NCBI GenBank assembly: GCA_947499555.1 | Contig: CANMOU010000002.1 | Span: forward strand, 135,001 to 199,000 | Length of the DNA stretch: 64,000 nucleotides | Source of the DNA: an uncultured Roseovarius sp. | GTDB lineage: Bacteria; Pseudomonadota; Alphaproteobacteria; Rhodobacterales; Rhodobacteraceae | Direction of reading: 5' to 3' | Shown here: positions 24,842 through 44,388 of the stretch, piece by piece | Position numbering within the stretch: the first letter of the stretch is position 1 | Layout: every line of letters begins with the position of its first letter | The notes under the pieces: model-generated | Told to the model about the DNA's origin: nothing | Seen by the model: the letters and a program-made list of their open reading frames with translations, nothing else | Databases searched by the model: none | Translations under genes and position numbers: made by a program

Positions 24842-25285
24842 ATGAGCAACCTGCCCCAACAACAAGCCATGTGGCACGCCCTTTCGCGGGGCTACACGCA
24901 CACACGCGGGGCACTTGAGGCCGCGCTCAAGTCAGAAGACCTGCCGAGTCTTGAGGTTCTGGATGCGCTATCGGCCCTTGTCGCGAGCGATCAGGCAATG
25001 ACGGCCAAGGACCTCGAAACTGCGCTTCTGATGCCGCAATATGGCGTCTCCCGACTGCTTGACCGGATGGAAAAGGATAAGCTGGTCAAACGGGTGGCCA
25101 ACCCAGGTGATCAACGATCAAAGCTCTTGAAAGTCACCGAAGCAGGAATCGCCGCGCAAAGCCGAATGGAGACGCTGCGCGATACGGCCCTTGCCGAGTT
25201 TCTCGAAACGCGCGCGCGCCCAGGGCAACTCAACCGAATGATCCGCCTGCTTGGTCTGCTTGATGGGGCGGAAGACGCGGACTAA
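24842..25285 (+). CDS. MarR-family transcriptional regulator
   Basis: 147 residues. The winged helix-turn-helix is visible in [20 protein letters not shown] (recognition helix) and the wing in [22 protein letters not shown], with flanking N- and C-terminal dimerisation helices. The Asp-x-Arg of the wing (DQRSK) is the usual DNA-contact site. The ligand is unknown. It is transcribed away from creD and probably controls it and itself. Its TAA overlaps the convergent sdhB stop by four bases, so transcription of one runs into the other. Confidence 0.9.
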
Positions 25286-26061
25286 ACCGCGCGCTCTAGC
25301 ATCATCTTCTTGATTTCCGCAATTGCCTTTGCCGGGTTCAACCCCTTGGGGCAGGTCTTGGCGCAATTCATGATCGTGTGGCAGCGATAAAGCTTGAAGG
25401 GATCTTCAAGATCATCCAAACGCTCGCCCGTCGCCTCATCGCGGCTGTCAATGATCCAGCGATAGGCATGCAAAAGAGCCGCCGGCCCCAGGTATTTGTC
25501 ACCGTTCCACCAGTAGCTCGGGCAGGATGTCGAACAGGACGCGCACATAACGCATTCATAAAGCCCATCCAGTTTCGAGCGATCTTCGATCGACTGCTTC
25601 CATTCCTTCGCCGGGCGGTTCGTCTTGGTCTCCAGCCACGGCATGATGGATGCATGCTGGGCATAGAAATGCGTCAGGTCCGGGATCAGATCCTTGATCA
25701 CCGGCATATGCGGCAGCGGATAGATCTTCACATCCCCCTTGATCTCATCAAGCCCGTAGATACAGGCAAGCGTGTTGATCCCGTCGATATTCATAGCACA
25801 GGAGCCACAAATGCCTTCACGGCACGAACGCCGGAAGGTCAGCGTCGGATCAATCTCATTCTTGATCTTAATGAGCGCGTCCAGAACCATCGGGCCGCAT
25901 TTGTCCATGTCGACGAAATACGTATCGACAGAGGGGTTCTTTCCGTCATCGGGGTTCCAGCGATAAATCTGGAACTTACGGACATTCGTGGCGCCCTCCG
26001 GCTTTGGCCAGGTCTTGCCCGTCGTGATCCGGGAATTCTTCGGCAGGGTCAGTTGAACCAT
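25282..26061 (-). CDS. sdhB: Succinate dehydrogenase iron-sulfur subunit SdhB
   Basis: 259 residues. It carries electrons from SdhA to ubiquinone in complex II. The [2Fe-2S] ligands are in [16 protein letters not shown] plus a later LACIYG; the [4Fe-4S] and [3Fe-4S] ligands are in [16 protein letters not shown] and [15 protein letters not shown]. The Trp and Tyr next to the second cluster fit quinone binding. The start at 26061 ([10 protein letters not shown]) is supported by GGAG 8 bp upstream; a longer in-frame extension is not. It is last in sdhC-sdhD-sdhA-lipoprotein-sdhB, separated from sdhA by the small lipoprotein gene. Confidence 0.97.
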
Positions 26062-26075
26062 GTCTCTTTCTCCGA

Positions 26076-26393
26076 TCAGCCGCCCAAAAGGGTCAAGCCA
26101 TTCTCTGCATAGCATTGTACCGCGTCAGGGCGGGTTGAAATCTCGAGCACCGTCTCAGCAGTTTCCGGCGTGATCTCGGTCACCGATGCCCGCGCGAGGC
26201 TTAGGATCTCTCCGGCAGATGCGGCGTCAATGACACAGTCAGTGACAGGTGCGATGTTGATGCCGGGAAACCGGGCCTGCATCACTTCGTTGACGACGGA
26301 TTTGGCCTGCTTTCGCGCAATGGAATCCGCAGCGTCATTGGCCGCCGTGCATCCCGCAATCGCGAGCGTCAAGATGGCAAGGATCACCCGCAT
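26076..26393 (-). CDS. Small lipoprotein encoded between sdhA and sdhB
   Basis: 105 residues. The N-terminus [15 protein letters not shown] is a lipoprotein signal with lipobox AIAG-C at Cys15. The mature part is about 90 residues, helical in character ([20 protein letters not shown]) with a further cysteine pair ([10 protein letters not shown] and AVQCYAENG) that could form a disulfide. No known domain. The ATG overlaps the sdhA stop by one base (TGATG), and the gene ends 15 bp before sdhB, so it is an integral part of the operon. An envelope-side role linked to complex II or its expression is possible but unproven. Confidence 0.82.
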
Positions 26394-28198
26394 CAGAATG
26401 TGCGCTCCTTGGGCGCGATCTTCTTGAGGCTGATGCCGCCTTCGGCCTCTGTTGTGAGCGGGTCCTCGATAATCGGGCGGTAGCTCAGCTCAACGTTGCG
26501 GCCATCCACCCGGGCCACTGTATGGACGCGCCAATTCTTGTCATCGCGCTTGGTGAAATCTTCATGCGCGTGCGCCCCGCGGCTTTCCTTGCGCGCCGCG
26601 GCCCCGGCGATTGTGGCAAGCGCATTGGGCATCAGGTTGGTTAATTCCAGCGTTTCCATCAGGTCGCTGTTCCAGACCAGCGAGCGATCGGTCACTTGAA
26701 GATCATCCATCTTCGCCGCAATCGCGTCCATCTTCTCGACGCCTTCGGCAAGCGTTTTCGACGTGCGGAACACGGCGGCATCGGCTTGCATCGTGCGCTG
26801 CATTTCCAGACGCAAATCGGCAGTTGGCGTCGCGCCATCCGCATGCCGCAGACCGTCAAAGCGATCCATTGCCTTGTCGACCTGGCTTGTGTTGGTCGCG
26901 GGCACCGCGCTGTCGCGATCCACAACCTTGCCGGCGCGAATGGCGGACGCGCGTCCAAAGACCACAAGGTCAATAAGCGAGTTTGATCCCAGACGGTTTG
27001 CCCCATGTACGCTGGCACAGCCGGCCTCTCCCACGGCCATCAGGCCCGGCACAACGGCGTTGGGATCCTTCTTGGCGGGGTTCAGAACCTCGCCCCAGTA
27101 GTTCGTCGGGATACCACCCATATTGTAATGCACCGTCGGCAGAACCGGGATCGGCTCTTTGGTGACATCCACGCCTGCGAAGATACGCGCGCTTTCCGAG
27201 ATGCCGGGCAGACGCAATTGCAGCGCCTCAGGCGGCAGGTGGCTCAGATTTAGGTGAATGTGATCACCCTCTGCACCAACGCCGCGCCCTTCGCGAATTT
27301 CCATCGTCATTGAGCGGCTGACATAGTCACGCGGTGCCAGATCCTTGTAGTTGGGCGCATAGCGTTCCATGAACCGCTCGCCTTCGCTGTTCGTCAGATA
27401 CCCGCCTTCGCCGCGCGCACCTTCCGTGATCAGACAGCCCGAGCCATAAATGCCAGTGGGGTGGAACTGCACGAACTCCATATCCTGCAAAGGCAGGCCC
27501 GCGCGCGCCACCATGCCCCCACCGTCACCGGTGCAGGTATGGGCCGAGGTGGCGCTGAAATAAGCCCGGCCATAGCCGCCTGTGGCCAGCACCACCATCT
27601 TGGAATTGAACACGTGGATGGTGCCATCGTCGAGCTTCCAGCAGACGACACCGGTGCAGATGCCATCATCGCTCATCATCAGGTCGATGGCGAAATACTC
27701 GATGTAGAACTCGGCATTGTTCTTCAGGGACTGGCCATAAAGCGTGTGCAGAATGGCATGGCCGGTCCGGTCCGCAGCTGCACAGGTGCGCTGCACGGCG
27801 GGGCCCTCGCCAAACTCCGTGGTGTGACCACCAAAGGGACGCTGATAAATCTTGCCTTCTTCGGTGCGCGAAAACGGCACACCGTAATGCTCTAGCTCGT
27901 AGACCGCTTTTGGCGCTTCACGGGCGAGATATTCCATCGCGTCCGTGTCGCCCAGCCAGTCACTGCCCTTGACCGTGTCATACATGTGCCACTGCCAGCT
28001 ATCGGGGCCCATATTGCCAAGGCTGGCAGCGATACCGCCTTGCGCCGCCACCGTGTGAGAGCGGGTCGGAAACACCTTCGTGATACAGGCCGTGCGCAAA
28101 CCCTGCTCTGCCATGCCGAGCGTTGCACGCAAGCCCGCACCGCCGGCTCCAACGACCACGACATCATATTCATGGGTTTCGTATTCGTAAGTTGCCAT
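26393..28198 (-). CDS. sdhA: Succinate dehydrogenase flavoprotein subunit SdhA
   Basis: 601 residues. It oxidises succinate to fumarate with covalently bound FAD. The FAD motif is [20 protein letters not shown]; the flavinylation histidine is in [16 protein letters not shown]. Substrate-site residues lie in [11 protein letters not shown] and in the [10 protein letters not shown] region, and the C-terminal [10 protein letters not shown] is typical. The start at 28198 ([10 protein letters not shown]) has GGAG 8 bp upstream; an upstream in-frame extension to 28240 would overlap sdhD and has no ribosome site. It lies 16 bp after sdhD. Confidence 0.98.
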
Positions 28199-28214
28199 GT
28201 CGTCTACTCCGGTC

Positions 28215-28586
28215 TCACAGCGCCAGCCGTGCGATGGCAAAAAGCCCTGTCGCCATGGCCCCGTAACTTAGGCAGGTGACCAGGATGATGGTGATTTTCT
28301 GCGCCGTGCCGTGCACGTAGTCCTCGATGAGAACCTGAGCGCCGTCCGAGAAATGCTTAAAGCCCACGATGATGGTCAGGGCCGCTACAATCGCCGGGAA
28401 AGGCCGGGCAAAATAGGCCGTCACGTCTTCGTAAGAACCGCCCAGCGTCGCGCCGAAGGTGAAGATAAAAAGCGGTATCAGAATAAGCAGTGCCACGCTT
28501 TGCACTTTCATCGACCAGAAGTGATGCACGCCCGATTTGGCCGATCCCATGCCGACGGCCCGTTTGCGATCTGTCAGATATCTCAT
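28215..28586 (-). CDS. sdhD: Succinate dehydrogenase membrane anchor subunit SdhD
   Basis: 123 residues with three membrane helices ([56 protein letters not shown]). With SdhC it anchors complex II and forms the quinone and haem b site. The segment [17 protein letters not shown] carries a haem-ligand-type His and the conserved Asp-Tyr of the family. The ATG has GAGG upstream. It follows sdhC by 10 bp. Confidence 0.95.
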
Positions 28587-28596
28587 GCCTCGACCC

Positions 28597-28980
28597 TCAA
28601 AGAATGAACGCTGTGACGAGTGTCAGAACGACAGAGCCGCCGATGACCACCCAGCCGAGTTTCTCGGCGGTTTCGATTTCGAGCATCATGGCGTTGTCCC
28701 AGATCAGATGCCGCACACCGGCTAGCGTGTGATACCAGAGCGCCCAGAGCGACAAGAACATGACAAGATCACCAAACCATCCCGTAACGACGGCGTCAGC
28801 CACCGCGAAATACTCAGGAGAGGTTGCTGCGGCCAGAAGCCACCAGACCGTCAGAAGTGCCGCGACAATCAACGCATTCCCGGTGATACGGGTCAGGATT
28901 GAGGTGATTGACGTAAGCTGCGGTCGGTAGATGGACAGGTGCGGCGACAGAGGACGGTTCCCGCGGTTAACGTCTGCCAT
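28597..28980 (-). CDS. sdhC: Succinate dehydrogenase cytochrome b556 subunit SdhC
   Basis: 127 residues and the first gene of the sdh operon. The family signature RPLSPHLSIYRPQLTSITSI at about residues 9-28 is intact, and the second conserved segment LWYHTLAGVRHLIWDNAM contains the haem-ligand histidine. Three hydrophobic helices are present. GGAAGGG lies upstream of the ATG. The 168-bp upstream region carries the paired GTGATCAC operator described separately. Confidence 0.96.
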   Translation of the reverse strand: MADVNRGNRPLSPHLSIYRPQLTSITSILTRITGNALIVAALLTVWWLLAAATSPEYFAVADAVVTGWFGDLVMFLSLWALWYHTLAGVRHLIWDNAMMLEIETAEKLGWVVIGGSVVLTLVTAFIL

Positions 28981-29119: not shown

Positions 29120-29157
29120 AATTTGTGATCACGTTATATTTTCAGTGATCACAAATT
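29120..29157. promoter_or_regulatory. Paired palindromic operator upstream of sdhC (predicted TCA-cycle regulator site)
   Basis: A 13-bp perfect inverted repeat, AATTTGTGATCAC at 29120-29132 and GTGATCACAAATT at 29145-29157. Each arm contains the self-complementary core GTGATCAC; core centres are 20 bp apart. The right arm overlaps the stop codon of the DUF1194 gene. The same arrangement occurs before sucC. Confidence 0.75.
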
Positions 29158-29850
29158 GGGGCTCTGAGAATCAGGCCGTTGACCGGATATCTGTTTTGTT
29201 ACCTCTCTCAAGAGCTTGCGCCGCATGCGCTCTGGATACTCATCGTAGGTATTCGATGTGATCACAAACGCGCCGTTGCCCAGGATGACATTCTCCCAAA
29301 AATACTCAGTTATCATCGGTTCGGCGCCTTCAATCACGAGCGCGTTCACGACGATGTTTGATGCCGCAAGCACGTCGTGAACCTCTTTTGGGGCGACGCC
29401 TTCGTTAGATGACCCATCTCCGGAAATATCGATCACCCATCGATTGCAATCCGGCACATTTGCGAACTGCGCAGCGGCAAAGCTCAGCGCCTCGCCAATG
29501 GCTGTCGAGAAATTCCGCCAAACGCGCGGCGTGGATTCAACGCGAACGGCGAACGCCTCCAGCACATCGAAGTCCGTCATCCGGGTCCACGGTGTCACGA
29601 CCCTCTGGCGAGAGGCACCCGTCCATTGCAACACCATGACCGCAGCCTCACCAGCGACCAGCGCTTCGGCAACTGTGCCGTCGCGCAATCCCTCGGCAAG
29701 GCCCTGCATTTGAATGCGGTATTCTTCATGATCAACCGAGCCTGACACATCAACCGCCAGAACCAGTGCAATTTCGCAGGCCCGCGTCGAGATGGCAGCG
29801 CAGCACAGGAAACAGACAAGAGACAGGCGAAAGATCATGACCGCAACCAT
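29149..29850 (-). CDS. DUF1194 domain-containing protein (von Willebrand A-like, exported)
   Basis: 233 residues. An N-terminal signal-like segment (FRLSLVCFLCCAAISTRA) precedes a vWA-like domain whose metal-site motif DVSGSVD is at about residues 34-40; NFSTAIGEAL and DISGDGSSNEG complete the MIDAS pattern. It would be periplasmic and bind a protein partner through a divalent metal. Function unknown. It lies 45 bp downstream of mch and ends 168 bp before sdhC, so it may be cotranscribed with the mcl2-mch group. ATG at 29850 is used; ATG at 29838 is also possible, and neither has a strong ribosome site. Confidence 0.82.
   Translation of the reverse strand: MVAVMIFRLSLVCFLCCAAISTRACEIALVLAVDVSGSVDHEEYRIQMQGLAEGLRDGTVAEALVAGEAAVMVLQWTGASRQRVVTPWTRMTDFDVLEAFAVRVESTPRVWRNFSTAIGEALSFAAAQFANVPDCNRWVIDISGDGSSNEGVAPKEVHDVLAASNIVVNALVIEGAEPMITEYFWENVILGNGAFVITSNTYDEYPERMRRKLLREVTKQISGQRPDSQSPNL
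29258..29268. promoter_or_regulatory. Additional GTGATCACAAA site inside the DUF1194 gene
   Basis: The 11-mer GTGATCACAAA at 29258-29268 matches the arms of the sdh and suc operators. It lies 113 bp centre-to-centre from the nearer sdh arm. It is in coding sequence and may be an auxiliary site or chance. Confidence 0.35.
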
Positions 29851-29895
29851 GGCAAGCTGGAGCGGACTTGACCAGCCGGGATCCCGACCGGTGCA

Positions 29896-30933
29896 TCACA
29901 TTGGCATGAGGGCCCAATAATCGAGATCAAGCAGGACATCGGGCGCATACCGGCCATCCTCGCCCTTCAGAGCGAAAGGCTCACCGCCCTTGCGCGCCAC
30001 AAGACGCAACCGCAGGGCACCAACACCCGGAACATGCGTCTCTGCTTTTTCTAGCACCTCGGACCAGGCCTTGATCGTATCGCCGCTATAGCAGGGGTTG
30101 GCGTGGGCGCCCGCATTAAGGCCGGCAACGATCTGAGCATTGGCCAAACCATTGAAGCTAAGTGTACGGGCCATTGAAATGACATGACCGCCATAAATCA
30201 AACGGTGTCCATCCTCGCGAACCGTTGCATCAAAATGCACCTTCGCGGTGTTTTGCCAAAGGCGCGTGGCCATCATGTGTTCGGCTTCTTCCACGGTCAC
30301 GCCATCGACATGGTCGATCTGCTCACCGACGTCATAATCCCCCCAGCGATGCGGTTCCCCCGCGAGGGCAAAATCATAATCGGCAAAGCTCAGGCCCTCG
30401 GGCACGATCAAGTCATCAACGCGCAAGGCCGGCTTCAGATCGGGAACAACTGTCTGCGGCGCGGGCGCATCCTCGTCCGCTTTGCGCACCATCACCCAGC
30501 GCACATAGTCGATCACGACCTCATCGCGTTGGTTCATACCCTTGGTGCGCACCCAGACGACACCCGACTTTCCATTGGAGTTTTGCTTCACGCCGATCAC
30601 TTCAGAGGTCGATCGCAGAGTGTCGCCGGGATAGACCGGCCTGAGCCACCGGCCCTCTGCGTAGCCAAGGTTGGCAATCGCATTGAGCGAGATATCCGGC
30701 ACCGTCTTGCCAAAGACCACATGGAACGCCGCGATATCATCAAGCGGACTTGCGCACAGGCCACAGGCGCGGGCGAACTCATCTGACGAATAAAGCGCGT
30801 GACGGGCAGGATAGAGCGCGTGATACAAGACCCGCTCGCCACCCGATACGGTCCGCGGCACAGCATGGTGAATCGTTTCGCCGACGCTGTAGTCTTCAAA
30901 AAACCGGCCCGGATTGGTCTTGACCATGCTCAT
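29896..30933 (-). CDS. mch: Mesaconyl-CoA hydratase (MaoC-like, two hot-dog domains)
   Basis: 345 residues. In the ethylmalonyl-CoA pathway it interconverts mesaconyl-C1-CoA and beta-methylmalyl-CoA. Two MaoC-like domains are visible: the first with RFFEDYSVGETIHHAVPRT and LDDIAAFHVVFGKTVPDISL, the second with WGDYDVGEQIDHVDGVTVEE and HFDATVREDGHRLIYGGHVI. The closing DLDYWALMPM is typical. The ATG at 30933 overlaps the upstream DUF1737 stop as ATGA, which fixes the start; an in-frame extension to 30999 is rejected. It lies in an operon with mcl2, which supports the pathway assignment. Confidence 0.9.
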   Translation of the reverse strand: MSMVKTNPGRFFEDYSVGETIHHAVPRTVSGGERVLYHALYPARHALYSSDEFARACGLCASPLDDIAAFHVVFGKTVPDISLNAIANLGYAEGRWLRPVYPGDTLRSTSEVIGVKQNSNGKSGVVWVRTKGMNQRDEVVIDYVRWVMVRKADEDAPAPQTVVPDLKPALRVDDLIVPEGLSFADYDFALAGEPHRWGDYDVGEQIDHVDGVTVEEAEHMMATRLWQNTAKVHFDATVREDGHRLIYGGHVISMARTLSFNGLANAQIVAGLNAGAHANPCYSGDTIKAWSEVLEKAETHVPGVGALRLRLVARKGGEPFALKGEDGRYAPDVLLDLDYWALMPM

Positions 30934-31133
30934 TGCTCTCCAAGTTTGATGTCTGGGCTGTAAGTGCCGTCGACCTCTTTCGTCACGGCCTGGCCGCACC
31001 GCATGACCCCGTTTGCTGCATCAAACGCGTAGGTCGGGTCGCCATGCAGGCTCCAGCCCGTGTTCAGGGCGGCCGTAACCTTATGGCAAAAGTCGGATGT
31101 GTCATCGGTGGACAGGAAGCGATAGAGTTTCAT
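30930..31133 (-). CDS. DUF1737 domain-containing small protein
   Basis: 67 residues, beginning MKLYRFLSTDDTSDFCHKV. The segment ALNTGWSLHGDPTYAFDA and MRCGQAVTKEVDG match the DUF1737 family, small soluble proteins of unknown function with a Gly-Trp-x-Leu-x-Gly motif. It sits between nnrU and mch with a 4-bp gap and a 4-bp overlap, so it is expressed with the ethylmalonyl-CoA genes. ATG at 31133 is preferred to an in-frame start at 31160, which would overlap nnrU. Confidence 0.83.
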   Translation of the reverse strand: MKLYRFLSTDDTSDFCHKVTAALNTGWSLHGDPTYAFDAANGVMRCGQAVTKEVDGTYSPDIKLGEQ

Positions 31134-31137
31134 GTTT

Positions 31138-31686
31138 TTATCCAAAGACAGGGTAGCCAAGCCACATATGGATCCCAGCGATCACGGCGAATACGACCAC
31201 TGTACCGACGAGCGCCATAACCTCTTTCGATTTCGGGGCGGGCTCGGGCGGTGTCCAGTCCGGGACGGCCTTGTTGATCAGGATCATCTGAACCACGGCC
31301 CAGGCCAAGAGCCCACCAAACAGGATGAAAGACGGCACATCGCCGTTCACGAGAAGATGGGCCAGCGCCCATACCTTCACTGCGCCCAGCATCGGGTGGC
31401 GCATCCGGCGCGCCAGAGCAGTTTTCATGCCCGAAGCCGCAAACATATAGACAGAGACCAGCATCAAGAGATTGTTGATGCCCACAAGTGCAGGGCTGCG
31501 GCCCCAAAACACGGCACCGTCGGCCATCCCGTAGCCCTTGCTCATAAGCCAGATACTCAGCACCAACAAAACGGCGATAACGGCTTTTCCCGGAACCTCG
31601 CCAAGCGCCGTGCGCAAGCTGGGCGCTAGCCGCCTCATCAGATGCGCCCCACTCCAAAGAAGAAGCCCAAGTATCAGGTAAAGCAT
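31138..31686 (-). CDS. NnrU-family membrane protein
   Basis: 182 residues with about five membrane helices (LYLILGLLLWSGAHLMRRL, AVIAVLLVLSIWLMSKG and others). Family features include SGAHLM near the start and RRMRHPMLGAVKVWALAHLL in the middle. NnrU was named from denitrification loci but is widespread, and its function is unclear; it is related to isoprenylcysteine-methyltransferase-like membrane proteins. No denitrification genes are present here. GGAG lies 8 bp before the ATG, and it is 5 bp downstream of mcl2. Confidence 0.87.
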   Translation of the reverse strand: MLYLILGLLLWSGAHLMRRLAPSLRTALGEVPGKAVIAVLLVLSIWLMSKGYGMADGAVFWGRSPALVGINNLLMLVSVYMFAASGMKTALARRMRHPMLGAVKVWALAHLLVNGDVPSFILFGGLLAWAVVQMILINKAVPDWTPPEPAPKSKEVMALVGTVVVFAVIAGIHMWLGYPVFG

Positions 31687-31691
31687 AACGT

Positions 31692-32555
31692 CTACTCCGC
31701 TGCCATTTCCGCAATCGCCTGCGATTTCGCAAGAATGCGCTGCGCGGCGACGACGTGAAGGTTCTCGACGATCTGCCCATCAACCACGGCGACGCCAAGA
31801 CCTTGTTTCTGGCTTTCCTCAAAGGCTTCGATCTGACGTTTGGCCAGATCAATTTCGGACTGGGTCGGCGCAAAGGCCGTGTTGGTCACGTCGATCTGTG
31901 CCGGATGGATAAGGGTCTTGCCGTCAAAGCCCAGATCGCGGCCCTGCTCGCATTCCACCTTAAGGCCGTCGCCATCCCGAAAACGGTTATAGACACCGTC
32001 GATCGCGACAACGCCGCGCGCCGCCCGTGCCGCCATGACGATCATCTGCAAAGACGCCTGAAGCGGCATCCGGTCCGGGCGGTAGCGGCATCCAAGTTCT
32101 TTTGTCAGATCGTTTGTGCCGGTGATAAGCCCTGTCACCTGCCGGTGCGCCGCAATCTCTCGTGCGTTGAAAACACTCGCGGGCGTCTCCATCATGGTCC
32201 AGATCGGCATGTCAGGCCCGACCATATCGGCAAGGCTATCCACATCTGAATAATTGTTGACCTTGGGCAGAAGAATGATGTCAGCCCCGGCATTGCCTAG
32301 AACACGCACATCCTCGAAACCCCATTCGGTGGTCAGCGCGTTGATCCGAACCACCTTCACACGGTTTCCGTAGCCGCCATCACCAAGAGCCTGCGCAAGC
32401 GTTTGTCGTGCTTCCGCCTTCGCATCAGGGGCGACCGCATCTTCGAGATCAAAGATGATCGCGTCTGTTGGCAGGCTTCTTGCCTTCTCAAGCGCCCGTT
32501 CCTTTGAGCCGGGAATATACAAGACTGAACGATAAGGGTGCGTCTCAAGGTCCAT
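31692..32555 (-). CDS. mcl2: (3S)-malyl-CoA thioesterase / CitE-like lyase family (Mcl2 type)
   Basis: 287 residues of the HpcH/HpaI-CitE superfamily. YRSVLYIPGSKERALEKA and IIFDLEDAVAPDAK contain the CoA-site lysine and the catalytic Glu-Asp; VVRINALTTEWGFED, ETPASVFNAREIA and GFDGKTLIHPAQI follow. The length and the RSVLYIPG start resemble Rhodobacter Mcl2, which hydrolyses (S)-malyl-CoA to malate, more than the longer Mcl1 lyase. With Mch it serves glyoxylate/acetate assimilation. GGAG lies 8 bp before the ATG. It is first of mcl2-nnrU-DUF1737-mch. Confidence 0.86.
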   Translation of the reverse strand: MDLETHPYRSVLYIPGSKERALEKARSLPTDAIIFDLEDAVAPDAKAEARQTLAQALGDGGYGNRVKVVRINALTTEWGFEDVRVLGNAGADIILLPKVNNYSDVDSLADMVGPDMPIWTMMETPASVFNAREIAAHRQVTGLITGTNDLTKELGCRYRPDRMPLQASLQMIVMAARAARGVVAIDGVYNRFRDGDGLKVECEQGRDLGFDGKTLIHPAQIDVTNTAFAPTQSEIDLAKRQIEAFEESQKQGLGVAVVDGQIVENLHVVAAQRILAKSQAIAEMAAE

Positions 32556-32607
32556 CGCGACGTCTCCTTTTCCATGACGGCGGAAATTTTCTTGCGCAGC
32601 ATTGCCA

Positions 32608-32623
32608 CTTTTTGCGCGAAAAG
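32608..32623. promoter_or_regulatory. Near-perfect 16-bp palindrome upstream of mcl2
   Basis: CTTTTTGCGCGAAAAG: seven of eight base pairs match across the dyad, 53-68 bp before the mcl2 ATG, with a related half TTGCGC further downstream near 32592. It is a candidate operator of unknown cognate regulator. No other gene or clear structure was seen in 32556-32762. Confidence 0.35.
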
Positions 32624-32762
32624 TTCAAGGATTTTCCCGCCGCGACGCAGAAAGACGGAAACGAAACACAGGCGAACGTCGCGTTAACCTTGTTTTGGTA
32701 GCCATGGGATCACGCTTTGAGACAACCAAAAGGCAGGGACACAGCTCAGAAAGGCAAGAACG

Positions 32763-33065
32763 ATGAAGTTGAATGCAATCATGACGAGCGCCGCCGTCGC
32801 GGTCTGCCTGGCAAGCCCATCCGCTGCGTCAAATTGTGCCCCGCGCGAGATGGTCGTGGAAAAACTGGCCTCCAAATATGGCGAATCCCGTCAATCCATG
32901 GGCCTTGGTGCAAACAATGCGGTGGTCGAGGTTTTCGCCTCGGAAGAAACCGGCACATGGACAATTACCGTCACCTCGGTGCACGGCATGACCTGCCTGG
33001 TTGCCAGTGGTCAGGCCTATGAGGCGCTGGCCGATGTGCTTCCGACGGAGGGCAACGACGCGTGA
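32763..33065 (+). CDS. Small exported protein of unknown function
   Basis: 100 residues. MKLNAIMTSAAVAVCLASPSAAS is a Sec signal peptide with a cleavage site near residue 23. The mature part is about 77 residues: NCAPREMVVEKLASKYGESR, then an acidic beta-rich segment, and a second cysteine in GMTCLVASGQAYEAL. The two cysteines may form a disulfide. No domain recognised. Divergent from mcl2 and 220 bp upstream of mdh on the same strand. The ribosome site is weak, but the signal peptide and cysteine pattern support a real gene. Confidence 0.75.
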   Translation: MKLNAIMTSAAVAVCLASPSAASNCAPREMVVEKLASKYGESRQSMGLGANNAVVEVFASEETGTWTITVTSVHGMTCLVASGQAYEALADVLPTEGNDA

Positions 33066-33171
33066 CTAGCCGATTTCATGCATACATTCCGCATCGGCTG
33101 CACGAAACACCGCTGATCCAGCGAATTCTTTTTGGCCCCTAGAGAGGTTTGGCGGACAACAATACTGATCT

Positions 33172-33195
33172 TTTGTTATCGTGTCGGATCACAAA
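33172..33195. promoter_or_regulatory. Degenerate TCA-type operator upstream of mdh
   Basis: TTTGTTATC at 33172-33180 and GATCACAAA at 33187-33195 form an inverted repeat with one mismatch. The arms are those of the sdh and suc operators, spaced about one helical turn closer (15 instead of 25-26 bp between arm centres). It lies about 91-114 bp before the mdh ATG, similar to the suc site. Confidence 0.5.
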
Positions 33196-33246
33196 TGCGC
33201 TCTGCTGCGGCGCAGCGGACTTGCGCCAAGGGCCGTTTAGGACTAG

Positions 33247-34248
<1,002 letters not shown>

Positions 34249-34275
34249 TCCTGATAAAGGCACATGTCTAAGCTG

Positions 34276-34311
34276 AAACGCACAGGCCTCCGGGTCTGTG
34301 CGTTTCTTTTT
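34276..34311 (+). terminator. Rho-independent terminator of mdh
   Basis: Ten perfectly paired bases, AAACGCACAG/CTGTGCGTTT, extended inward by GCC/GGT to a short loop, followed by CTTTTTT, 28 bp after the mdh stop. Confidence 0.92.
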
Positions 34312-34327
34312 TGCTTTGGAGATTGAT

Positions 34328-35851
34328 TTGATCCGTTTTTTCAAACTTGGCATAGCCGCAACGTTCGCTCTCGCCACGACCGTCGCGCCTGATGGCGCAA
34401 AGGCACAAACCCTAGCCGATAACGGGCTTGCACCGACGATTGAGCGCCTCGCCTCTGACGCCGATGGTAATCCATTCCTGCTTGGCATGTTGCAAACACT
34501 TCGGGCCGTAGAGAAGACAGTGCAATCGCAATATGAATATGGTCTGGGTCAGCGTATTCCGCTTCTGCCTGTCTTGCGCGCGGCTACGGGCGTCGCCCCA
34601 AACCCGAACGCCAAACCGTCGACCCCCGGCACATTGTCCCAAATCATGCGCCAATTCTCAGATGACATGGAGACAGCACGTGCCACGCTCCTTTCGGCGA
34701 AGAATGACGATATCGCCGCTTTTGAGCTCAATTTGCAGGATTTATGGTTCGATGTGGATCAAAACGGCCAACGCGCTGACCAGGAAAGAGTTGTCGACAT
34801 TCTCGGTGCCTTGGTGATCGGTGGACGCGCCTATGCGCAGTTTCGCCAATCCGAGGCAAAGGACGAGGCTTTGGAAGTTCGCTTTGACACCGCTGATCAT
34901 GCCTGGCTGGTGGCCTATACCCATATGCTTTCGGGCTTTGCGCATCTCTATCTGGCATTTGACCCTGAGCCGGTTTTTCAAAGACTGGAAGACGAACGCG
35001 CGGCACTTGGGAACGCACCGGAAATCCCCAATATCTACGATCAGGCAGAATTGGCGAAAGAGTTGTCTGAGCTTGAGGCGGAAGAGGCACAGATCAAGGC
35101 TGATACAGATGCCCTGCAACAAAGCCTCAACGCAAAGAATGACGAATACCGCGCGCGTCTGAACGAATTGCGGGAAATGCCCGATGGTGCAGAAAAAGAC
35201 GCGCTCCAAGAGACTGTTGATGCCATGCAGGAAGAAAACAGGGCGCTGGGAAGAGAGCTCAGCGATCTGCGCCGCAGTCTTCAGTTCATCCGCAACGAGA
35301 AACGCTCTATTGAAGCCAAACAACCCGGAGCGGTTGGCGGTTTGCAGGCATTGGCACAATCCCAAACCGAGACCTATGATCTTATCTATGTCGTGATCCG
35401 CTCGCTCGACCAGGAGCCTGATCCGGGTCATATCCGCGCGGTGCGCGACAACTGGATGGGCATGATCGAACAAAATCGCATGTTCTGGGCGCGCCTTGCA
35501 GACGAGACAGACAATGATCGCGAATGGATCCCCAATGCACAGCAGACCTCTGCTCTTCCCATTGAGATCCCCGAAGGCGCACCAGAAGCCTGGCAGGCGA
35601 TCCTGTCGGATGTTGAAGCTGTTCTGCAGGGGAAGCTGTTGATCACGCACCCTCTTTTGCCGGCCGGTTACGGGATCAGTCTTCCGGCCTATGTCGAAGA
35701 TCCCGGGCCGTTTTCGCCGGTTGACTGGATTCATGGCATCGGGGCCTACCGCTATGCTGCAAAGGGGCCGCGTCTTACGGCGCAAAGCTGGAATGCCTTT
35801 CAAAGGTTGACTAATGGAAACCCCGGTGGTTTCGCGATCTTCTTCAACTAA
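34328..35851 (+). CDS. Exported coiled-coil protein of unknown function
   Basis: 507 residues. The TTG at 34328 is taken as start because GGAG lies 6 bp before it and the result begins with a clean Sec signal (IRFFKLGIAATFALATTVAP, cleavage after AKA). The ATG at 34298 sits inside the mdh terminator and has no ribosome site. Residues about 239-328 are heptad-like and Glu/Lys/Leu-rich (KELSELEAEEAQIKAD, EENRALGRELSDLRRSLQ), a long coiled coil. The flanking regions are globular, with no recognised motif. It lies between mdh and sucC on the same strand; whether it relates to metabolism is unknown. Confidence 0.75.
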   Translation: MIRFFKLGIAATFALATTVAPDGAKAQTLADNGLAPTIERLASDADGNPFLLGMLQTLRAVEKTVQSQYEYGLGQRIPLLPVLRAATGVAPNPNAKPSTPGTLSQIMRQFSDDMETARATLLSAKNDDIAAFELNLQDLWFDVDQNGQRADQERVVDILGALVIGGRAYAQFRQSEAKDEALEVRFDTADHAWLVAYTHMLSGFAHLYLAFDPEPVFQRLEDERAALGNAPEIPNIYDQAELAKELSELEAEEAQIKADTDALQQSLNAKNDEYRARLNELREMPDGAEKDALQETVDAMQEENRALGRELSDLRRSLQFIRNEKRSIEAKQPGAVGGLQALAQSQTETYDLIYVVIRSLDQEPDPGHIRAVRDNWMGMIEQNRMFWARLADETDNDREWIPNAQQTSALPIEIPEGAPEAWQAILSDVEAVLQGKLLITHPLLPAGYGISLPAYVEDPGPFSPVDWIHGIGAYRYAAKGPRLTAQSWNAFQRLTNGNPGGFAIFFN

Positions 35852-35930
35852 ATCGCGATTGGCGCTGTACACTCAGGTAGGGCGCAGAACCTTGAAACTA
35901 CGCTTCGATTCGGTTTTGGGCCATCGATAC

Positions 35931-35967
35931 AATTTGTGATCACACGTCTTAAAAGTGTGATCACAAA
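35931..35967. promoter_or_regulatory. Paired palindromic operator upstream of sucC (predicted TCA-cycle regulator site)
   Basis: AATTTGTGATCACAC starts at 35931 and its mirror GTGTGATCACAAAA starts at 35955. The two GTGATCAC cores (35936-35943 and 35957-35964) are 21 bp apart centre to centre. It lies just upstream of a good promoter and about 95-130 bp before sucC, and is nearly identical to the sdh site. Confidence 0.75.
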
Positions 35968-35977
35968 AACTAGTTTT

Positions 35978-36007
35978 TTGTCTGAATTTCCGTCAAACCC
36001 CTTATAA
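35978..36007 (+). promoter_or_regulatory. Candidate promoter of the suc operon
   Basis: TTGTCT at 35978-35983 and TTATAA at 36002-36007 with 18 bp between, start near 36014. The paired operator lies immediately upstream of the -35 element, at about -50 to -80, a position more typical of activation than of simple blocking. Confidence 0.45.
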
Positions 36008-36061
36008 CGCGCAACCGCCCTGTCTATACCCAAAAGAGACTTATCAAGACGGGATTGTGCG

Positions 36062-37255
36062 ATGAACATTCACGAATATCAGGCGAAATCCTTGCTCCGC
36101 TCTTATGGCGCGCCGGTCTCTGACGGCCGTGTCGTGCTGCGGGCGGAGGAAGCCAAAACCGCTGCGGGCGAACTCGACGGTCCGGTCTGGGTCGTCAAGG
36201 CGCAGATCCACGCCGGCGGCCGCGGCAAGGGCACGTTCAAAGAGGCCGAGGCCGGAGATGGCGGCGGCGTGCGCATCGCCAAATCCGTGAGTGAGGCCGC
36301 CGAAGAGGCCAAGCACATGCTCGGCCGCACGCTTGTCACCAAGCAAACCGGCCCGGCGGGCAAACAGGTCAACCGCGTCTATATAGAAGACGGCGCAGGC
36401 ATTGAGAAAGAGTTCTACCTCGCTCTTCTTGTTGATCGCGGCACCTCGCGCATCAGCTTCGTCTGCTCCACCGAGGGCGGCATGGATATCGAGGAAGTGG
36501 CCGAAAGCACGCCAGAAAAAATCCTCAGCTTTAGCGTTGATCCCGCCACGGGCTACCAGGCCTTTCACGGTCGCCGCATCGCCTTCATGCTCGAACTCAC
36601 CGGCGGCGCGGTCAAGCAATGCGTCAAGCTGATGGGCACGCTCTACAAGATGTTCCTCGAAAAAGACATGGAGATGCTCGAGATCAACCCACTGATCCTG
36701 ACCACGAGCGGCGATCTGAAATGCCTCGATGCGAAGATGGGGTTTGATTCCAACGCAGTCTACCGCCATGCCGACATCGCCGAACTGCGCGACGTGACCG
36801 AGGAAGACCCCAAGGAGTTGGAAGCCTCCAAGTATGATCTCAACTATATCGCGCTTGATGGCGAAATCGGTTGCATGGTCAACGGCGCGGGTCTTGCCAT
36901 GGCGACAATGGACATCATCAAGCTTTACGGTTCGGAGCCTGCCAACTTCCTCGACGTTGGTGGGGGTGCCACTAAGGACAAGGTGACCGAAGCGTTCAAG
37001 ATCATCACCTCCGACCCACAGGTCAAAGGCATCCTGGTGAACATCTTCGGCGGTATCATGCGCTGTGACGTGATCGCCGAGGGCGTGGTGGCGGCGGTGA
37101 AAGAGGTGGGCCTCAAGGTCCCGCTCGTCGTCCGGCTTGAGGGCACGAATGTCGAGAAGGGCAAAGAGATCATCAACACTTCAGGCCTGGATGTGATTGC
37201 GGCAGACAATCTGAAAGATGGCGCCGAGAAGATCGTGAAGGCGGTTAAGGGGTGA
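36062..37255 (+). CDS. sucC: Succinyl-CoA synthetase beta subunit (ADP-forming)
   Basis: 397 residues. It provides the nucleotide-binding ATP-grasp domain ([39 protein letters not shown]) and the C-terminal ligase domain ([37 protein letters not shown]). With SucD it makes ATP or GTP from succinyl-CoA. Metal-site residues lie in LEINPLILT. The length is the family norm. First of the run sucC-sucD-X-sucA-sucB-Y-MAPEG-lpdA. Its ribosome site is weak. Confidence 0.98.
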
Positions 37256-37279
37256 GGACCGGTCCGGCGCAGCCGGTGG

Positions 37280-37321
37280 AACGTCCAGCGGACGTTTCAA
37301 GGTCTGAAGGGGCGGAGCCCC
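37280..37321 (+). other. Hairpins in the sucC-sucD spacer
   Basis: AACGTCC-AGC-GGACGTT at 37280-37296 and GGGGC-GGA-GCCCC at 37309-37321 within a 124-bp gap. No T-run follows. They may stabilise or process the transcript between two genes whose products are needed in equal amounts. Confidence 0.45.
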
Positions 37322-37379
37322 GGAAACCCCTCGAAGAGACAACGCGGGCATACCGCAAATAAACTAAGGAGCCACCACT

Positions 37380-38261
37380 ATGGCAGTCCTCGTAGACGAA
37401 AACACCAAAGTCATCTGTCAGGGTCTCACCGGCTCACAGGGCACATTCCACTCTGAACAGGCCATCGCCTATGGCACCAAGATGGTTGGCGGGGTGACCC
37501 CCGGAAAGGGCGGGCAGACACATCTGGATCTGCCAGTCTTCAACTCTGTGCATGAAGCGATGCATGAAACCGGCGCCAATGCATCCGTTATCTATGTCCC
37601 TCCCCCCTTTGCGGCGGATTCCATCCTTGAGGCCATTGATGCCGAGATGCCGCTTATTGTGTGCATCACCGAAGGTATCCCTGTCCTCGACATGCTGCGC
37701 GTCAAACGCGCGCTGATGGACAGCACGTCCAAGCTCATCGGCCCCAACTGCCCCGGCATCATCACGCCCGATGCCTGCAAGATCGGTATCATGCCGGGCC
37801 ATATCCACAAGCGCGGCTCCTGCGGTGTGGTTTCGCGCTCTGGCACACTCACATACGAGGCGGTGAAGCAAACCTCCGATGTGGGTCTTGGCCAGTCCAC
37901 TTGTGTGGGCATTGGCGGCGACCCCATCAAGGGCACCGAGCACATCGATGTGCTGGAATGGTTCCTTGCCGATGATGAGACCGAAAGCATCATCATGATC
38001 GGCGAAATCGGCGGGTCTGCTGAGGAAGAGGCCGCACAGTTCCTGATCGACGAGAAAAAGAAAGGCCGCTGGAAGCCCACCGCTGGTTTCATTGCTGGGC
38101 GCACCGCCCCTCCCGGCCGCCGCATGGGCCACGCCGGTGCCATTGTCGCGGGCGGCAAAGGCGGTGCCGATGACAAGATCGAAGCCATGCGTGCGGCTGG
38201 GATTGTTGTAAGCGAGTCCCCGGCCGGTCTGGGCGAAGCTGTGCTGGAGGCGATTGGGTAA
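37380..38261 (+). CDS. sucD: Succinyl-CoA synthetase alpha subunit
   Basis: 293 residues. It carries the phosphohistidine and CoA site: CoA-binding motif [17 protein letters not shown] near the start, Rossmann segment [18 protein letters not shown], and active-site histidine in [26 protein letters not shown] lies 8 bp before the ATG. Its TAA overlaps the next gene's ATG by one base. Confidence 0.98.
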
Positions 38262-38935
38262 TGTTCCCGGTCAAAGCCGTAGGCCGGGCATTCGCTTGGC
38301 ACGCAACCCTGATAGTTTCGGGTGCGGCGTTCCTTTTGGTGGCCGCACCCGCCGAGGCGGGCGAATGGGGTAAAATCGCCAAAAAGGCCATCGCGGCTTG
38401 CACGGAGGCCGCGCCGGAAGAGTTCGACGCCAATCTGGCATCTGCCGGGTTCGAGCCGCTGACCGAGGCGCAGGTGAACCGCGTCGGCGCACAGCTGACA
38501 TATGCCGAACGCCTCACCGCCTATTCCCAGACAGGCCAGGCGCCCAACCCGGCCCTGCACGCCAATGCGGCTGAGATTTTCACCGGCATCGTCGCGGCCA
38601 TCGCCGAGAGCACCGATGACGGGCAGCGGATCTATGTCTATCCCGAGGACAACACGTTCTTCATCATGACGTCTTCGGTCGAACCGGCGCATTGCGGCTT
38701 TACCCACGTGGCCACACCCGATCACGGGGCCCTTCGCGCCGATGCGTTTGATCCCAACGCGGGCCTCAAGGATCCCGATCAGACCATCGAGCAGGATTTT
38801 CTAACCGATCTCATCTCCGTGCCAAATGGGGAAGATCAACCCTTTATCTTCTTCCGGCAGTTTCGCCCCAAAGACGGCGCCAAAGAGGCTCTGGGCGACG
38901 ATGCCATCGTATCACAATGGGGCATCAGGCCCTGA
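38261..38935 (+). CDS. Exported protein of unknown function in the suc operon
   Basis: 224 residues. A signal peptide (HATLIVSGAAFLLVAAPAEA, cleavage near residue 33) leads a mature periplasmic protein with cysteines in KAIAACTEAAP and PAHCGFTHVATP that may pair. The acidic C-terminal half ends DDAIVSQWGIRP. No family recognised. The ATG overlaps the sucD stop (TAATG), and sucA starts 33 bp after its stop, so it is translated from the suc transcript. Its presence among cytoplasmic TCA enzymes is unexplained. Confidence 0.8.
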   Translation: MFPVKAVGRAFAWHATLIVSGAAFLLVAAPAEAGEWGKIAKKAIAACTEAAPEEFDANLASAGFEPLTEAQVNRVGAQLTYAERLTAYSQTGQAPNPALHANAAEIFTGIVAAIAESTDDGQRIYVYPEDNTFFIMTSSVEPAHCGFTHVATPDHGALRADAFDPNAGLKDPDQTIEQDFLTDLISVPNGEDQPFIFFRQFRPKDGAKEALGDDAIVSQWGIRP

Positions 38936-38968
38936 CGCAATGCGCGTCTGTCACCAGGGGAAAGACAC

Positions 38969-41926
38969 ATGACCGACCAATCTCCAAATGACCAGTTCCA
39001 CGCCTCCTCCTTCATGCAGGGGCACAATGCGGAATATCTGGAACAGCTCTATGCGCGTTATGCCAATGACCCAAACGCCGTCGATGAGGCTTGGCAGGCG
39101 TTTTTCCGGGCCATGGGCGATGATGAGGTGTCGGTCAAGCGAGAGGCCGCCGGGCCATCCTGGGCCCGCCCCGACTGGCCACCGCAACCCAATGACGACC
39201 TGACCGGCGCCCTGACCGGCGAATACCCGCCCGAGGTTGAAGCCAAGAAGGCCGGTGACAAGATCAAGGCCAAGGCCGCCGAAACCGGCGTCGAGGTGTC
39301 AGACGAGGCCATCAAGCGCGCCGTTCTGGACAGCGTTCGCGCCCTCATGCTCATTCGCGCCTACCGTATCCGGGGCCATCTGGCAGCCGATCTTGACCCT
39401 CTGGGTCTGCGCGAAACGCCCGTCCGGCCCGAGCTTGACCCGCGCTCCTACGGGTTCACCGAAGCGGATCTGGACCGGCCTATATTCATCGACAATGTTC
39501 TGGGCCTGCAGGTCGCCTCGATCCGCGAAATACTCGCCATCGTGAAGCGCACCTATTGTGGCACCTTCGCGCTTCAATACATGCATATCTCAGACCCCGA
39601 GCAATCCGCCTGGCTCAAGGAGCGGATCGAGGGCTATGACAAGGAAATCAGCTTTACCCGCGAAGGGCGGAAGGCGATCCTCAATAAGCTGGTTGAGGCG
39701 GAAGGCTTCGAGAAATACCTGCATGTCAAATACATGGGCACCAAGCGGTTTGGTCTTGATGGCGGCGAAAGCCTTATCCCGGCGATGGAGCAAATAATCA
39801 AACGCGGCGGGCAGTTGGGTGTCACCGAGATTGTGATCGGCATGCCCCACCGTGGCCGCCTTTCGCTTCTGGCCAATGTGATGGGCAAGCCCTATCGCGC
39901 GATCTTCAACGAGTTTCAGGGCGGCAGTTTCAAACCCGAAGATGTCGATGGATCGGGCGATGTGAAATATCACCTCGGCGCGTCCTCAGACCGCGAATTT
40001 GACGGCAACACCGTGCACCTGTCGCTCACCGCAAACCCAAGTCACCTTGAAGCGGTAAATCCGGTTGTCCTTGGCAAGGTCCGCGCCAAGCAGGACCAGA
40101 TCAACGATGCGGATCGCACAGCCGTGATGGGCATCCTGTTGCATGGCGACGCGGCCTTTGCAGGACAGGGTGTAGTTGCCGAGGGCTTTGGTCTTTCCGG
40201 TCTCAAAGGCCACAAGACCGGCGGTACGATGCATGTCGTTGTGAACAACCAGATCGGCTTTACCACGGCACCGCATTTCTCGCGCTCCTCGCCCTATCCG
40301 ACGGACATCGCACTGATGGTTGAAGCGCCGATTTTCCACGTGAATGGCGACGATCCCGAGGCGGTTGTTCATGCCGCGCGCGTGGCCACCGAGTTTCGCC
40401 AGAAGTTCCACAAAGACGTTGTTATCGACATGATCTGTTATCGCCGGTTCGGCCATAACGAGGGGGATGAACCGATGTTCACCAACCCCGTCATGTACAA
40501 GAAGATCAAGACGCAAAAAACCACGCTCGCGCTTTACACCGAAAGGCTGGTCAAGGATGGTCTGATCCCCGAAGGTGAGATCGAGGATATGAAGGCCGCG
40601 TTCCAATCCTACCTGGCAGATGAGTTTGAGGCCGGGAAGGAATACCGCCCCAACAAGGCAGACTGGCTTGATGGCAAGTGGTCACATCTCGACCGCAAGG
40701 ACGAAGACTACCAGCGCGGCGCCACCTCGATCAAGAAAAAGACCTTCACCGAAATTGGCAAGGCGCTGACAACCGCACCGGCTGATTTTCCGCTGCATAA
40801 GACCGTCTCGCGCCTGCTGGAAACCAAAGCGGCGATGTTCAAAAGCGGCGAAGGGTTTGACTGGGCCACGGCAGAGGCGCTTGCCTTCGGCTCGCTCCTG
40901 CTCGAAGGCTATCCGGTGCGTCTGGCGGGCCAGGACTGTACGCGCGGCACGTTCAGCCAGCGCCATTCAGGCCTGATCAATCAGGACACCGAAGAGCGCT
41001 ATTACCCACTCAACAACATTCGCCAGGGCCAGGCGCAGTACGACGTTATCGACTCGATGCTCTCGGAATACGCGGTTTTGGGATTTGAGTATGGGTATAC
41101 CCTGTCGGAGCCAAACGCGCTGGTCATGTGGGAGGCGCAGTTTGGTGATTTCGCCAACGGGGCGCAGATTATGTTTGATCAGTTCATCAGTTCCGGCGAA
41201 AGCAAATGGCTGCGCATGTCGGGCCTTGTCTGCCTCCTGCCGCATGGGTTTGAAGGACAGGGGCCAGAACACAGCTCGGCCCGGCTTGAACGGTTCCTGC
41301 AGATGTGCGGACAGGACAACTGGATCGTGGCGAATTGCACGACACCGGCGAACTATTTCCACATTCTGCGCCGCCAGTTGCACCGCACCTTCCGCAAACC
41401 GCTCATCCTGATGACGCCGAAATCGCTTCTGCGCCACAAGATGTGTATCTCCAGGACTGAGGATTTCGTCACCGGGTCAAGCTTCCACCGTGTGCTGTGG
41501 GATGATGCGCAGCACGGCAATTCCGACACGAAACTGAAGCCTGACAACAAGATCCGCCGCGTGGTAATGTGTTCAGGCAAGGTCTATTTCGACCTTCTGG
41601 AAGAACGCGACAAGCGCGGTCTGGATGACGTCTATCTGATGCGGGTTGAGCAGTTCTATCCCTTCCCGGCCATCTCGATGGTCAAGGAATTGGAACGCTT
41701 CAAAGGGGCAGAGATGGTCTGGTGCCAGGAAGAACCCAAGAACCAGGGTGCATGGACCTTCATCGAACCCAACATCGAATGGGTGCTGCAGCGCATCAAG
41801 GCCAAGCACACCCGCCCTGTATATGCCGGTCGCCCGGCCTCGGCCTCGCCTGCGACCGGTCTTGCCAGCCAACACAAAGCTCAACAAGAAGCGCTGGTCA
41901 ACGCCGCGCTGACGATCGAAGGATAA
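38969..41926 (+). CDS. sucA: 2-Oxoglutarate dehydrogenase E1 component
   Basis: 985 residues. Thiamine-diphosphate enzyme that decarboxylates 2-oxoglutarate and passes the succinyl group to lipoyl-SucB. The N-terminal SFMQGHNAEYLEQLYARYAN is the E2-interaction segment. The core contains GMPHRGRLSLLANVMGKP, GDAAFAGQGVVAEGF (ThDP/Mg site) and NNQIGFTT; the C-terminal domain has GTFSQRHSGLINQD and LLPHGFEGQGPEHSSARLE. Length matches the family. AGGGG lies 8 bp before the ATG. Next gene sucB starts 6 bp after the stop. Confidence 0.98.
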   Translation: MTDQSPNDQFHASSFMQGHNAEYLEQLYARYANDPNAVDEAWQAFFRAMGDDEVSVKREAAGPSWARPDWPPQPNDDLTGALTGEYPPEVEAKKAGDKIKAKAAETGVEVSDEAIKRAVLDSVRALMLIRAYRIRGHLAADLDPLGLRETPVRPELDPRSYGFTEADLDRPIFIDNVLGLQVASIREILAIVKRTYCGTFALQYMHISDPEQSAWLKERIEGYDKEISFTREGRKAILNKLVEAEGFEKYLHVKYMGTKRFGLDGGESLIPAMEQIIKRGGQLGVTEIVIGMPHRGRLSLLANVMGKPYRAIFNEFQGGSFKPEDVDGSGDVKYHLGASSDREFDGNTVHLSLTANPSHLEAVNPVVLGKVRAKQDQINDADRTAVMGILLHGDAAFAGQGVVAEGFGLSGLKGHKTGGTMHVVVNNQIGFTTAPHFSRSSPYPTDIALMVEAPIFHVNGDDPEAVVHAARVATEFRQKFHKDVVIDMICYRRFGHNEGDEPMFTNPVMYKKIKTQKTTLALYTERLVKDGLIPEGEIEDMKAAFQSYLADEFEAGKEYRPNKADWLDGKWSHLDRKDEDYQRGATSIKKKTFTEIGKALTTAPADFPLHKTVSRLLETKAAMFKSGEGFDWATAEALAFGSLLLEGYPVRLAGQDCTRGTFSQRHSGLINQDTEERYYPLNNIRQGQAQYDVIDSMLSEYAVLGFEYGYTLSEPNALVMWEAQFGDFANGAQIMFDQFISSGESKWLRMSGLVCLLPHGFEGQGPEHSSARLERFLQMCGQDNWIVANCTTPANYFHILRRQLHRTFRKPLILMTPKSLLRHKMCISRTEDFVTGSSFHRVLWDDAQHGNSDTKLKPDNKIRRVVMCSGKVYFDLLEERDKRGLDDVYLMRVEQFYPFPAISMVKELERFKGAEMVWCQEEPKNQGAWTFIEPNIEWVLQRIKAKHTRPVYAGRPASASPATGLASQHKAQQEALVNAALTIEG

Positions 41927-41932
41927 GACCCC

Positions 41933-43456: not shown

Positions 43457-43461
43457 GGCAG

Positions 43462-43480
43462 AGGTGGGGTGAAACCCCAC
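43462..43480 (+). other. Hairpin directly after sucB
   Basis: GGTGGGGT-GAA-ACCCCACC, 8-bp stem with a 3-base loop, 6 bases past the stop. No T-run follows. A related GC-rich stretch (GTAGGGCGGCG...CCCCGCC) is near 43505-43530. It could protect the 3' end of the upstream message before the less-expressed genes. Confidence 0.5.
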
Positions 43481-43597
43481 CCTACATCGCCGCTCGAATG
43501 TTCCGTAGGGCGGCGTTCCACCCCGCCAAAACACGAGTGGCGAAAGCTCTTCGAAGCGGAAGGTTGGATTGGCTCGACAAGGCCGAAGGGGTGATTG

Positions 43598-44250: not shown

Positions 44251-44323
44251 TCTTTCTTTTTGCCAAAAATATCCACGCGCAACCTTTACGCCGGGCGTTG
44301 CACTCGACATGCTCACCAAAAGC

Positions 44324-44367
44324 ACCGACGTGATACCGACACAATACCGACGCGATACCGACGTCGA
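44324..44367. repeat. Four 11-bp tandem repeats, locus B (same family as 17279-17322)
   Basis: Units: ACCGACGTGAT, ACCGACACAAT, ACCGACGCGAT, ACCGACGTCGA. Like locus A there are exactly four units, and the last ends in CGACGTCG instead of continuing GAT/AAT. It lies in the lpdA leader, ending 21 bp before the ATG and 7 bp before the ribosome site. Confidence 0.8.
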
Positions 44368-44388
44368 ACATCCCAAGGAGAACACCCA

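Follow-up and report, generated by a model that had tools for sequence, protein, structure and literature searches.

The stretch of DNA analyzed here (the window) comprises 64,000 nucleotides of a genome of an uncultured Roseovarius sp. of the family Rhodobacteraceae (GCA_947499555.1, contig CANMOU010000002.1, positions 135,001 to 199,000 of the forward strand). It contains two sets of tricarboxylic acid (TCA) cycle genes, each preceded by a closely similar pair of palindromes that are candidate operators of the GntR-family regulator AkgR. The first set, sdhCDAB, occupies 25282..28980 of the minus strand, with sdhB at 25282-26115, sdhA at 26393-28240, sdhD at 28215-28586 and sdhC at 28597-28980. 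The second set, on the plus strand at 36062..45783, consists of sucC (36062-37255), sucD (37380-38261), sucA (38969-41926), sucB (41933-43456) and an lpd-like gene for a pyridine nucleotide-disulphide oxidoreductase (44260-45783). These identities come from NCBIfam and, for the second set, also from Pfam, and in both cases the layout of the genes suggests an operon. The malate dehydrogenase gene mdh (33286..34248, plus strand, NCBIfam) is situated between the two sets.

Paired palindromes upstream of sdh and suc

The sdh pair (29122..29155, minus strand) is formed by two GTGATCAC palindromes (29125-29132 and 29145-29152) with the outer flanks TTT/AAA. It reads TTTGTGATCAC at 29122-29132, a 12-bp spacer, and GTGATCACAAA at 29145-29155, with the palindromes starting 20 bp apart, and its inner edge lies 142 bp upstream of the sdhC start (28980). 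The suc pair (35933..35967, plus strand), with palindromes at 35936-35943 and 35957-35964, is composed of the same elements, namely TTTGTGATCAC at 35933-35943, a 13-bp spacer, and GTGATCACAAA at 35957-35967, the palindrome starts being 21 bp apart. The form common to both operons is TTTGTGATCAC-N12/13-GTGATCACAAA, and the coordinates and the 20- and 21-bp intervals reported in an initial annotation of the window proved exact. The window contains 10 copies of GTGATCAC as against a mean of 1.04 in shuffled sequences, and none of 100 dinucleotide shuffles reached 10. Five copies of the exact 11-mer GTGATCACAAA are found in the window, just as the initial annotation had counted them, including a single one at 29258; the entire 3.73-Mb genome has eight, and a reversed-pattern control gave none. 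These eight comprise four at sdh and suc, the one at 29258, one before a GntR-family gene, and two within other open reading frames (ORFs), which, from translations read by eye, code for a BenE-like permease and an iron alcohol dehydrogenase.

An alignment of the suc upstream region of the window with those of 23 congeners places the pair at one position, followed by a conserved extended -10 element of the form TG-NN-TATAC (36021..36029, plus strand). With a transcription start placed about 7 bp after this element, the two palindromes would be centered near -75 and -96, at distances that would suit activation. The promoter proposed in the initial annotation, ending in TTATAA at 36002-36007, is not the conserved one. 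A consensus scan of three promoter regions recovered no promoter-like sites; its terminator-like matches were one at sdh and two near mdh.

Conservation of the pair and the genes that follow it

We examined the pair in two samples of genomes of the same genus that were collected without reference to the motif. Among 30 genomes fetched by their Mdh protein, 23 had a sucC start within the fetched stretch (the genome of the window not being one of these), and all 23 carry the pair upstream of suc with at most 2 of 18 mismatches, 19 of them exactly. A control with reversed arms at the same promoters showed 5-7 of 18 mismatches, the best being 5. Likewise, all 30 genomes fetched by SdhC, this time with our own included, carry the pair upstream of sdh, 12 of them exactly and none with more than 3 of 18 mismatches, as against 5-7 for the reversed arms. 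The palindrome starts are separated by 20 bp at sdh in 28 of the 30 genomes and by 21 bp at suc in 22 of the 23.

At the level of the family, a scan for TTTGTGATC...GATCACAAA with 12 to 19 bases allowed between the 9-mers recovered the pair in 212 of 394 genomes (393 genera, own included), with a length of 34 or 35 bp throughout among the matches listed, and half of the family genomes sampled keep a strict operator layout. The pair with 16 or 17 bases between the 9-mers is found in none of 209 genomes from other families of the class. At least 119 stretches of named contigs also carry it, and their titles name mostly genera of the same family.

The genes adjoining the pair were surveyed in 149 loci picked by the motif alone (30 and 119 from two sources, with some species possibly present in both). 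These contain 153 pair sites, to each of which we assigned the nearest gene start within 600 bp, 13 proteins of the window being tested. The gene next to the pair is sucC at 119 sites, sdhC at 28 and sucA at one, adding up to 148 of the 153. Once identical rows and short stretches are removed, both GTGATCAC palindromes are intact in 116 of 118 sucC sites and in all 28 sdhC sites. Such a scan of relatives had been proposed in the initial annotation, which considered that the pair could turn out to be absent from close relatives or scattered among unrelated genes; instead, it is present at suc in all 23 and at sdh in all 30 of the genus genomes sampled for these operons and is concentrated before these three genes. 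The specificity of the pair suffices for its main targets to be recognized from sequence alone.

Two of the five sites without an assigned gene lie beside mdh (L080 and L128) and a third beside DUF1194 (L170), all three being close to the edge of their locus. A fourth, in a Chloroflexi locus with none of the tested genes (L137), forms a perfect hairpin and is read as a chance match. The fifth (L159:1010-1043), in a record titled Rhizobiaceae bacterium, is the same 34-bp pair placed before an aldehyde dehydrogenase gene (Pfam Aldedh), and perhaps belongs to a related regulator with another target. Separately, a record titled Nocardioides marinus (locus L140, genome G643) contains mdh and sucC with the pair, and its genome has an akgR gene that is 81% identical; it is probably a mislabelled or mixed assembly.

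AkgR as the predicted regulator

AkgR of Rhodobacter sphaeroides was reportedly described by Imam, Noguera and Donohue in mBio in 2015 as an activator of the TCA cycle, and we take it to be the same protein as RSP_0981. The available portion of one source presents RSP_0981 as a GntR regulator with predicted control of succinyl-CoA synthetase, succinate dehydrogenase and 2-oxoglutarate dehydrogenase (PMC4344238), and excerpts of another term AkgR an activator and give GTGATCAC among its sites (PMC6365646). By their NCBIfam identities, the genes of the window, namely sdh, sucCD and those of 2-oxoglutarate dehydrogenase, match this regulon. The palindrome is present at both the sdh and suc promoters, and the same genome has a GntR-family akgR candidate that itself carries the motif. 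The initial annotation had found no certain regulator for the pair; the published work on AkgR and RSP_0981 answers this question, with AkgR fitting by motif, targets, protein family and gene neighborhood. On these grounds the sdh and suc pairs are very probably operators of AkgR, a GntR regulator with an FCD ligand-binding domain.

The genome has 21 GntR matches, of which 18 are over the curated cut-off. The akgR candidate among them (C2:916257-916928) lies on the same contig as the window, about 750 kb away, and codes for a protein of 223 residues with GntR and FCD domains, whose best solved-structure match is McbR (4p9f). A copy of GTGATCACAAA stands 8 bp before its predicted ATG. Among the 30 closest orthologues in the family, which include this gene, 29 have a palindrome between positions -40 and +11 relative to their projected start, as do 12 of 15 orthologues from named genomes. 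The nearest paralogue (37 to 41% identical) shows no palindrome within 300 bp upstream in any of 13 genes, one of them from the present genome. As in the AkgR system, the regulator gene is found near the TCA cluster in relatives: in one genome of the same genus (G278) it belongs to a suc-mdh-sdh cluster, at 2.3 kb from sucB, and in another genome (G333) to a suc-mdh cluster, at 2.6 kb from sucB, which fits the RSP_ numbers in the available portion of PMC4344238. The pair also co-occurs with akgR: of the 360 genomes that have a close orthologue 207 carry the pair, versus 5 of the 34 that have none (Fisher p 1e-6), and when only genomes with a completeness of at least 90% and a contamination of at most 5% are considered, the figures are 192 of 324 versus 2 of 23 (p 2e-6), though the rows represent related species and the p-values overstate their independence. 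In this comparison, absence of a close orthologue means no match or a best E-value above 1e-45 in result tables read by hand. Taken together, the conservation of the pair, the list of its targets and the regulator's own promoter strongly support one shared regulator for sdh and suc. The initial annotation had extended this regulator to mdh, a part of the proposal that does not stand, as the mdh arms are not conserved (see below).

Several observations weigh against this assignment. The presumed orthology of the GntR/FCD gene to RSP_0981 is argued from motif, targets, family and neighborhood, and the gene lies outside the window and is absent from all 149 of the loci (2-8 kb in length) that were picked by the motif. 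Its start palindrome is missing in one of the 30 family orthologues and in three of the 15 from named genomes. Five assemblies (G096, G114, G256, G264 and G319), of which G114 is rated 100% complete, have the pair and no close orthologue, and 153 of the 360 genomes with an orthologue are without an exact pair, exact pairs being the only ones counted. In the present genome, a loose form of the pair (up to 3 mismatches, sdh spacing) matches 12 places as against 2 for the reversed control: sdh with 0 mismatches, and the region upstream of mdh and ten further places with 3 each. Single sites with one mismatch were inspected only around sdh and akgR.

The five genomes with the pair and no close akgR orthologue would also favor a different regulator that shares the palindrome, for instance the second GntR paralogue (about 38% identical) or one not yet named, with AkgR binding its own promoter only. 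A second GntR match at 37-40% identity (E ~1e-35 to 1e-45) is available for this role in 12 of 15 named genomes. However, the palindrome is missing from the 300 bp upstream of all 13 paralogues, the targets and the motif agree with those published for AkgR, and the pair co-occurs with akgR, all of which render this scenario very improbable. It could also be argued that the pair is mainly a repressor operator, with bound AkgR holding sdh and suc down until an inducer releases it, given that akgR's own site is placed for repression and that many GntR/FCD proteins are repressors. Against this, the conserved -10 of suc lies downstream of the pair, whose palindromes stand near -75 and -96 of the putative start, and AkgR is termed an activator in the excerpts of PMC6365646, making a primarily repressive role highly unlikely. 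Activation by AkgR, the direction we infer, is in keeping both with the placement of the suc pair upstream and with the designation used in print.

A chance look-alike of a CRP/FNR, Rex or CceR site can be dismissed with near certainty. The words TGTGA/TCACA do resemble CRP and Rex half-sites, but such half-sites stand 6 bp apart, a spacing that is not seen here, where the outer TTGTGA and TCACAA are separated by 20 or 21 bp. CceR, presumably the name of RSP_1663, is a regulator of central carbon genes that belongs to the LacI family, and differs in protein family and motif from the system of the sdh and suc pairs. In its favor, mdh and sdh of R. sphaeroides are predicted targets of RSP_1663, but the available text gives its motif as [A/G/T]GTT N6-8 AAC (PMC4344238), whereas the paired sites read GTGATCAC instead; CceR sites elsewhere in these promoters are conceivable. 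A further described protein, PS417_07240 of Pseudomonas simiae, is 32% identical to AkgR and has the same palindrome GTGATCAC proposed for it; in the excerpts of PMC6365646, though, one palindrome is described, and the proposed target is a deoxyribonate catabolic cluster rather than the TCA cycle.

The pairs are, then, almost certainly AkgR sites and the switch is not new, a strong motif in a Rhodobacteraceae genome having been traced to a described, little-studied TCA-cycle activator; what is striking is the conservation of the matched two-site layout, with three sites at one operon. The strict 20/21-bp layout, the third site of sdh and the single palindrome at the start of akgR go beyond AkgR as described in the available portions of the published work, and the original AkgR study may hold them. 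A literature search for the motif and a regulator, or for the target genes, gave no related work among the matches listed, as judged from titles and the beginnings of abstracts; one relevant paper emerged when the motif was combined with the GntR family.

The distal sdh site, the mdh region and neighboring features

The single GTGATCACAAA at 29258-29268, which reads TTTGTGATCACA on the minus strand (29257..29268), lies inside the 3' part of a DUF1194 ORF, and a distance of 113 bp separates its palindrome from the closer one of the sdh pair. Of the 30 genus genomes (own included), 17 have a counterpart palindrome upstream of the pair at a distance of 98-113 bp, the upstream genes differing, and these 17 suggest that the site is a third sdh operator in a part of the genus. 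The distance is 110 bp in eight of them, 113 bp in six, and 98, 109 and 111 bp in one each; distances of 98 and 109-113 bp do not share one phase, which argues weakly against a tight loop with helical phasing. In the other 13 genomes the best match has 3 to 6 of 12 mismatches, comparable to a control stretch (3 to 7). Palindromes at 90-120 bp are present in 17 of 59 distinct sdh loci, every one of the 17 belonging to the genus sample, and one of 136 suc loci has a palindrome at this distance.

Protein constraint alone is an unlikely explanation of the site, given that a DUF1194 match is missing at this place in 12 of the 17 genomes carrying it. The long ORF that precedes sdhC stops before the site in 11 of these 12, although in some of the loci the site is overlapped by mechanically called ORFs on the other strand or in another frame. 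DUF1194 itself was found at the site in 12 loci, of which five (own included) read F-V-I-T at this point with the identical codons TTT GTG ATC ACA, the neighboring codons being variable. In eight genus genomes (L290-L297) the gene upstream of sdhC is, by eye, ATP synthase B-like instead of DUF1194, suggesting that the sdh operon moved together with its operators; in L291, the Pfam matches of two fragments are weak, and in the remaining genomes without DUF1194 other genes, likewise identified by eye, occupy this position. The third sdh site was not found in published work searched by the motif and the AkgR name, a search that did not take in the original AkgR study.

Under the mechanism that we propose, each GTGATCAC palindrome would bind one AkgR dimer, and the interval of 20 or 21 bp, equivalent to two helical turns, would put the two dimers of a pair on the same face of the double helix. 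Paired dimers upstream of the core promoter could then help RNA polymerase, such that transcription of sdh and suc would be raised together. The single palindrome at the akgR start codon is suited to repression, and binding there should block transcription and result in autorepression. The third palindrome of sdh, about 110 bp further upstream, probably serves to bind extra AkgR dimers or to allow DNA looping. As a tentative extension, which we regard as possible rather than probable, AkgR might function as a higher-order assembly, in which two dimers on paired operators constitute the activation unit in the family and the third operator of the genus joins at sdh through looping or a spread complex, so that sdh would answer the same signal differently from suc. 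The third sdh operator offers a concrete and testable contrast between two operons under one regulator.

The upstream region of mdh contains the arms TTTGTTATC (33172-33180) and GATCACAAA (33187-33195) as the initial annotation had described them, in the arrangement TTTGTTATC-N6-GATCACAAA (33172..33195, plus strand) with 17 of 18 positions matching. Among 80 family mdh upstream regions the arms occur in one, that of the window itself, and the best of the other 79, all from motif-fetched loci, matches 14 of 18 at another spacing (L084); reversed arms reach at best 14 of 18 in the same 80 regions. The arms are also missing from the other genus genomes in which the 300 bp upstream of mdh are complete (28 of 29, one being cut), where the best match is again 14 of 18 at another spacing (L236). 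The membership of mdh in a conserved AkgR regulon is accordingly rejected, and the arms represent a doubtful operator of this genome only, although a site gained in this species is conceivable. In sum, the proposal of shared operators is sound for sdh and suc, and unsupported by conservation for mdh.

Of the remaining features, five GTGATCAC words without the TTT/AAA flank (18213, 27260, 48413, 61801 and 63117) lie in predicted ORFs of the window, namely those of DUF1989, sdhA, an FtsX-like protein and, in two cases, yidC, and are probably due to chance. Elsewhere in the genome (G000:C1:1521658-1521681, locus L064), two GTGATCAC palindromes 12 bp apart lie within a permease-like coding sequence. 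A 517-residue ORF without Pfam matches separates mdh from sucC (34298-35851), and a MarR-family regulator gene for which we saw no link to the motif (24842-25285) adjoins sdhB.
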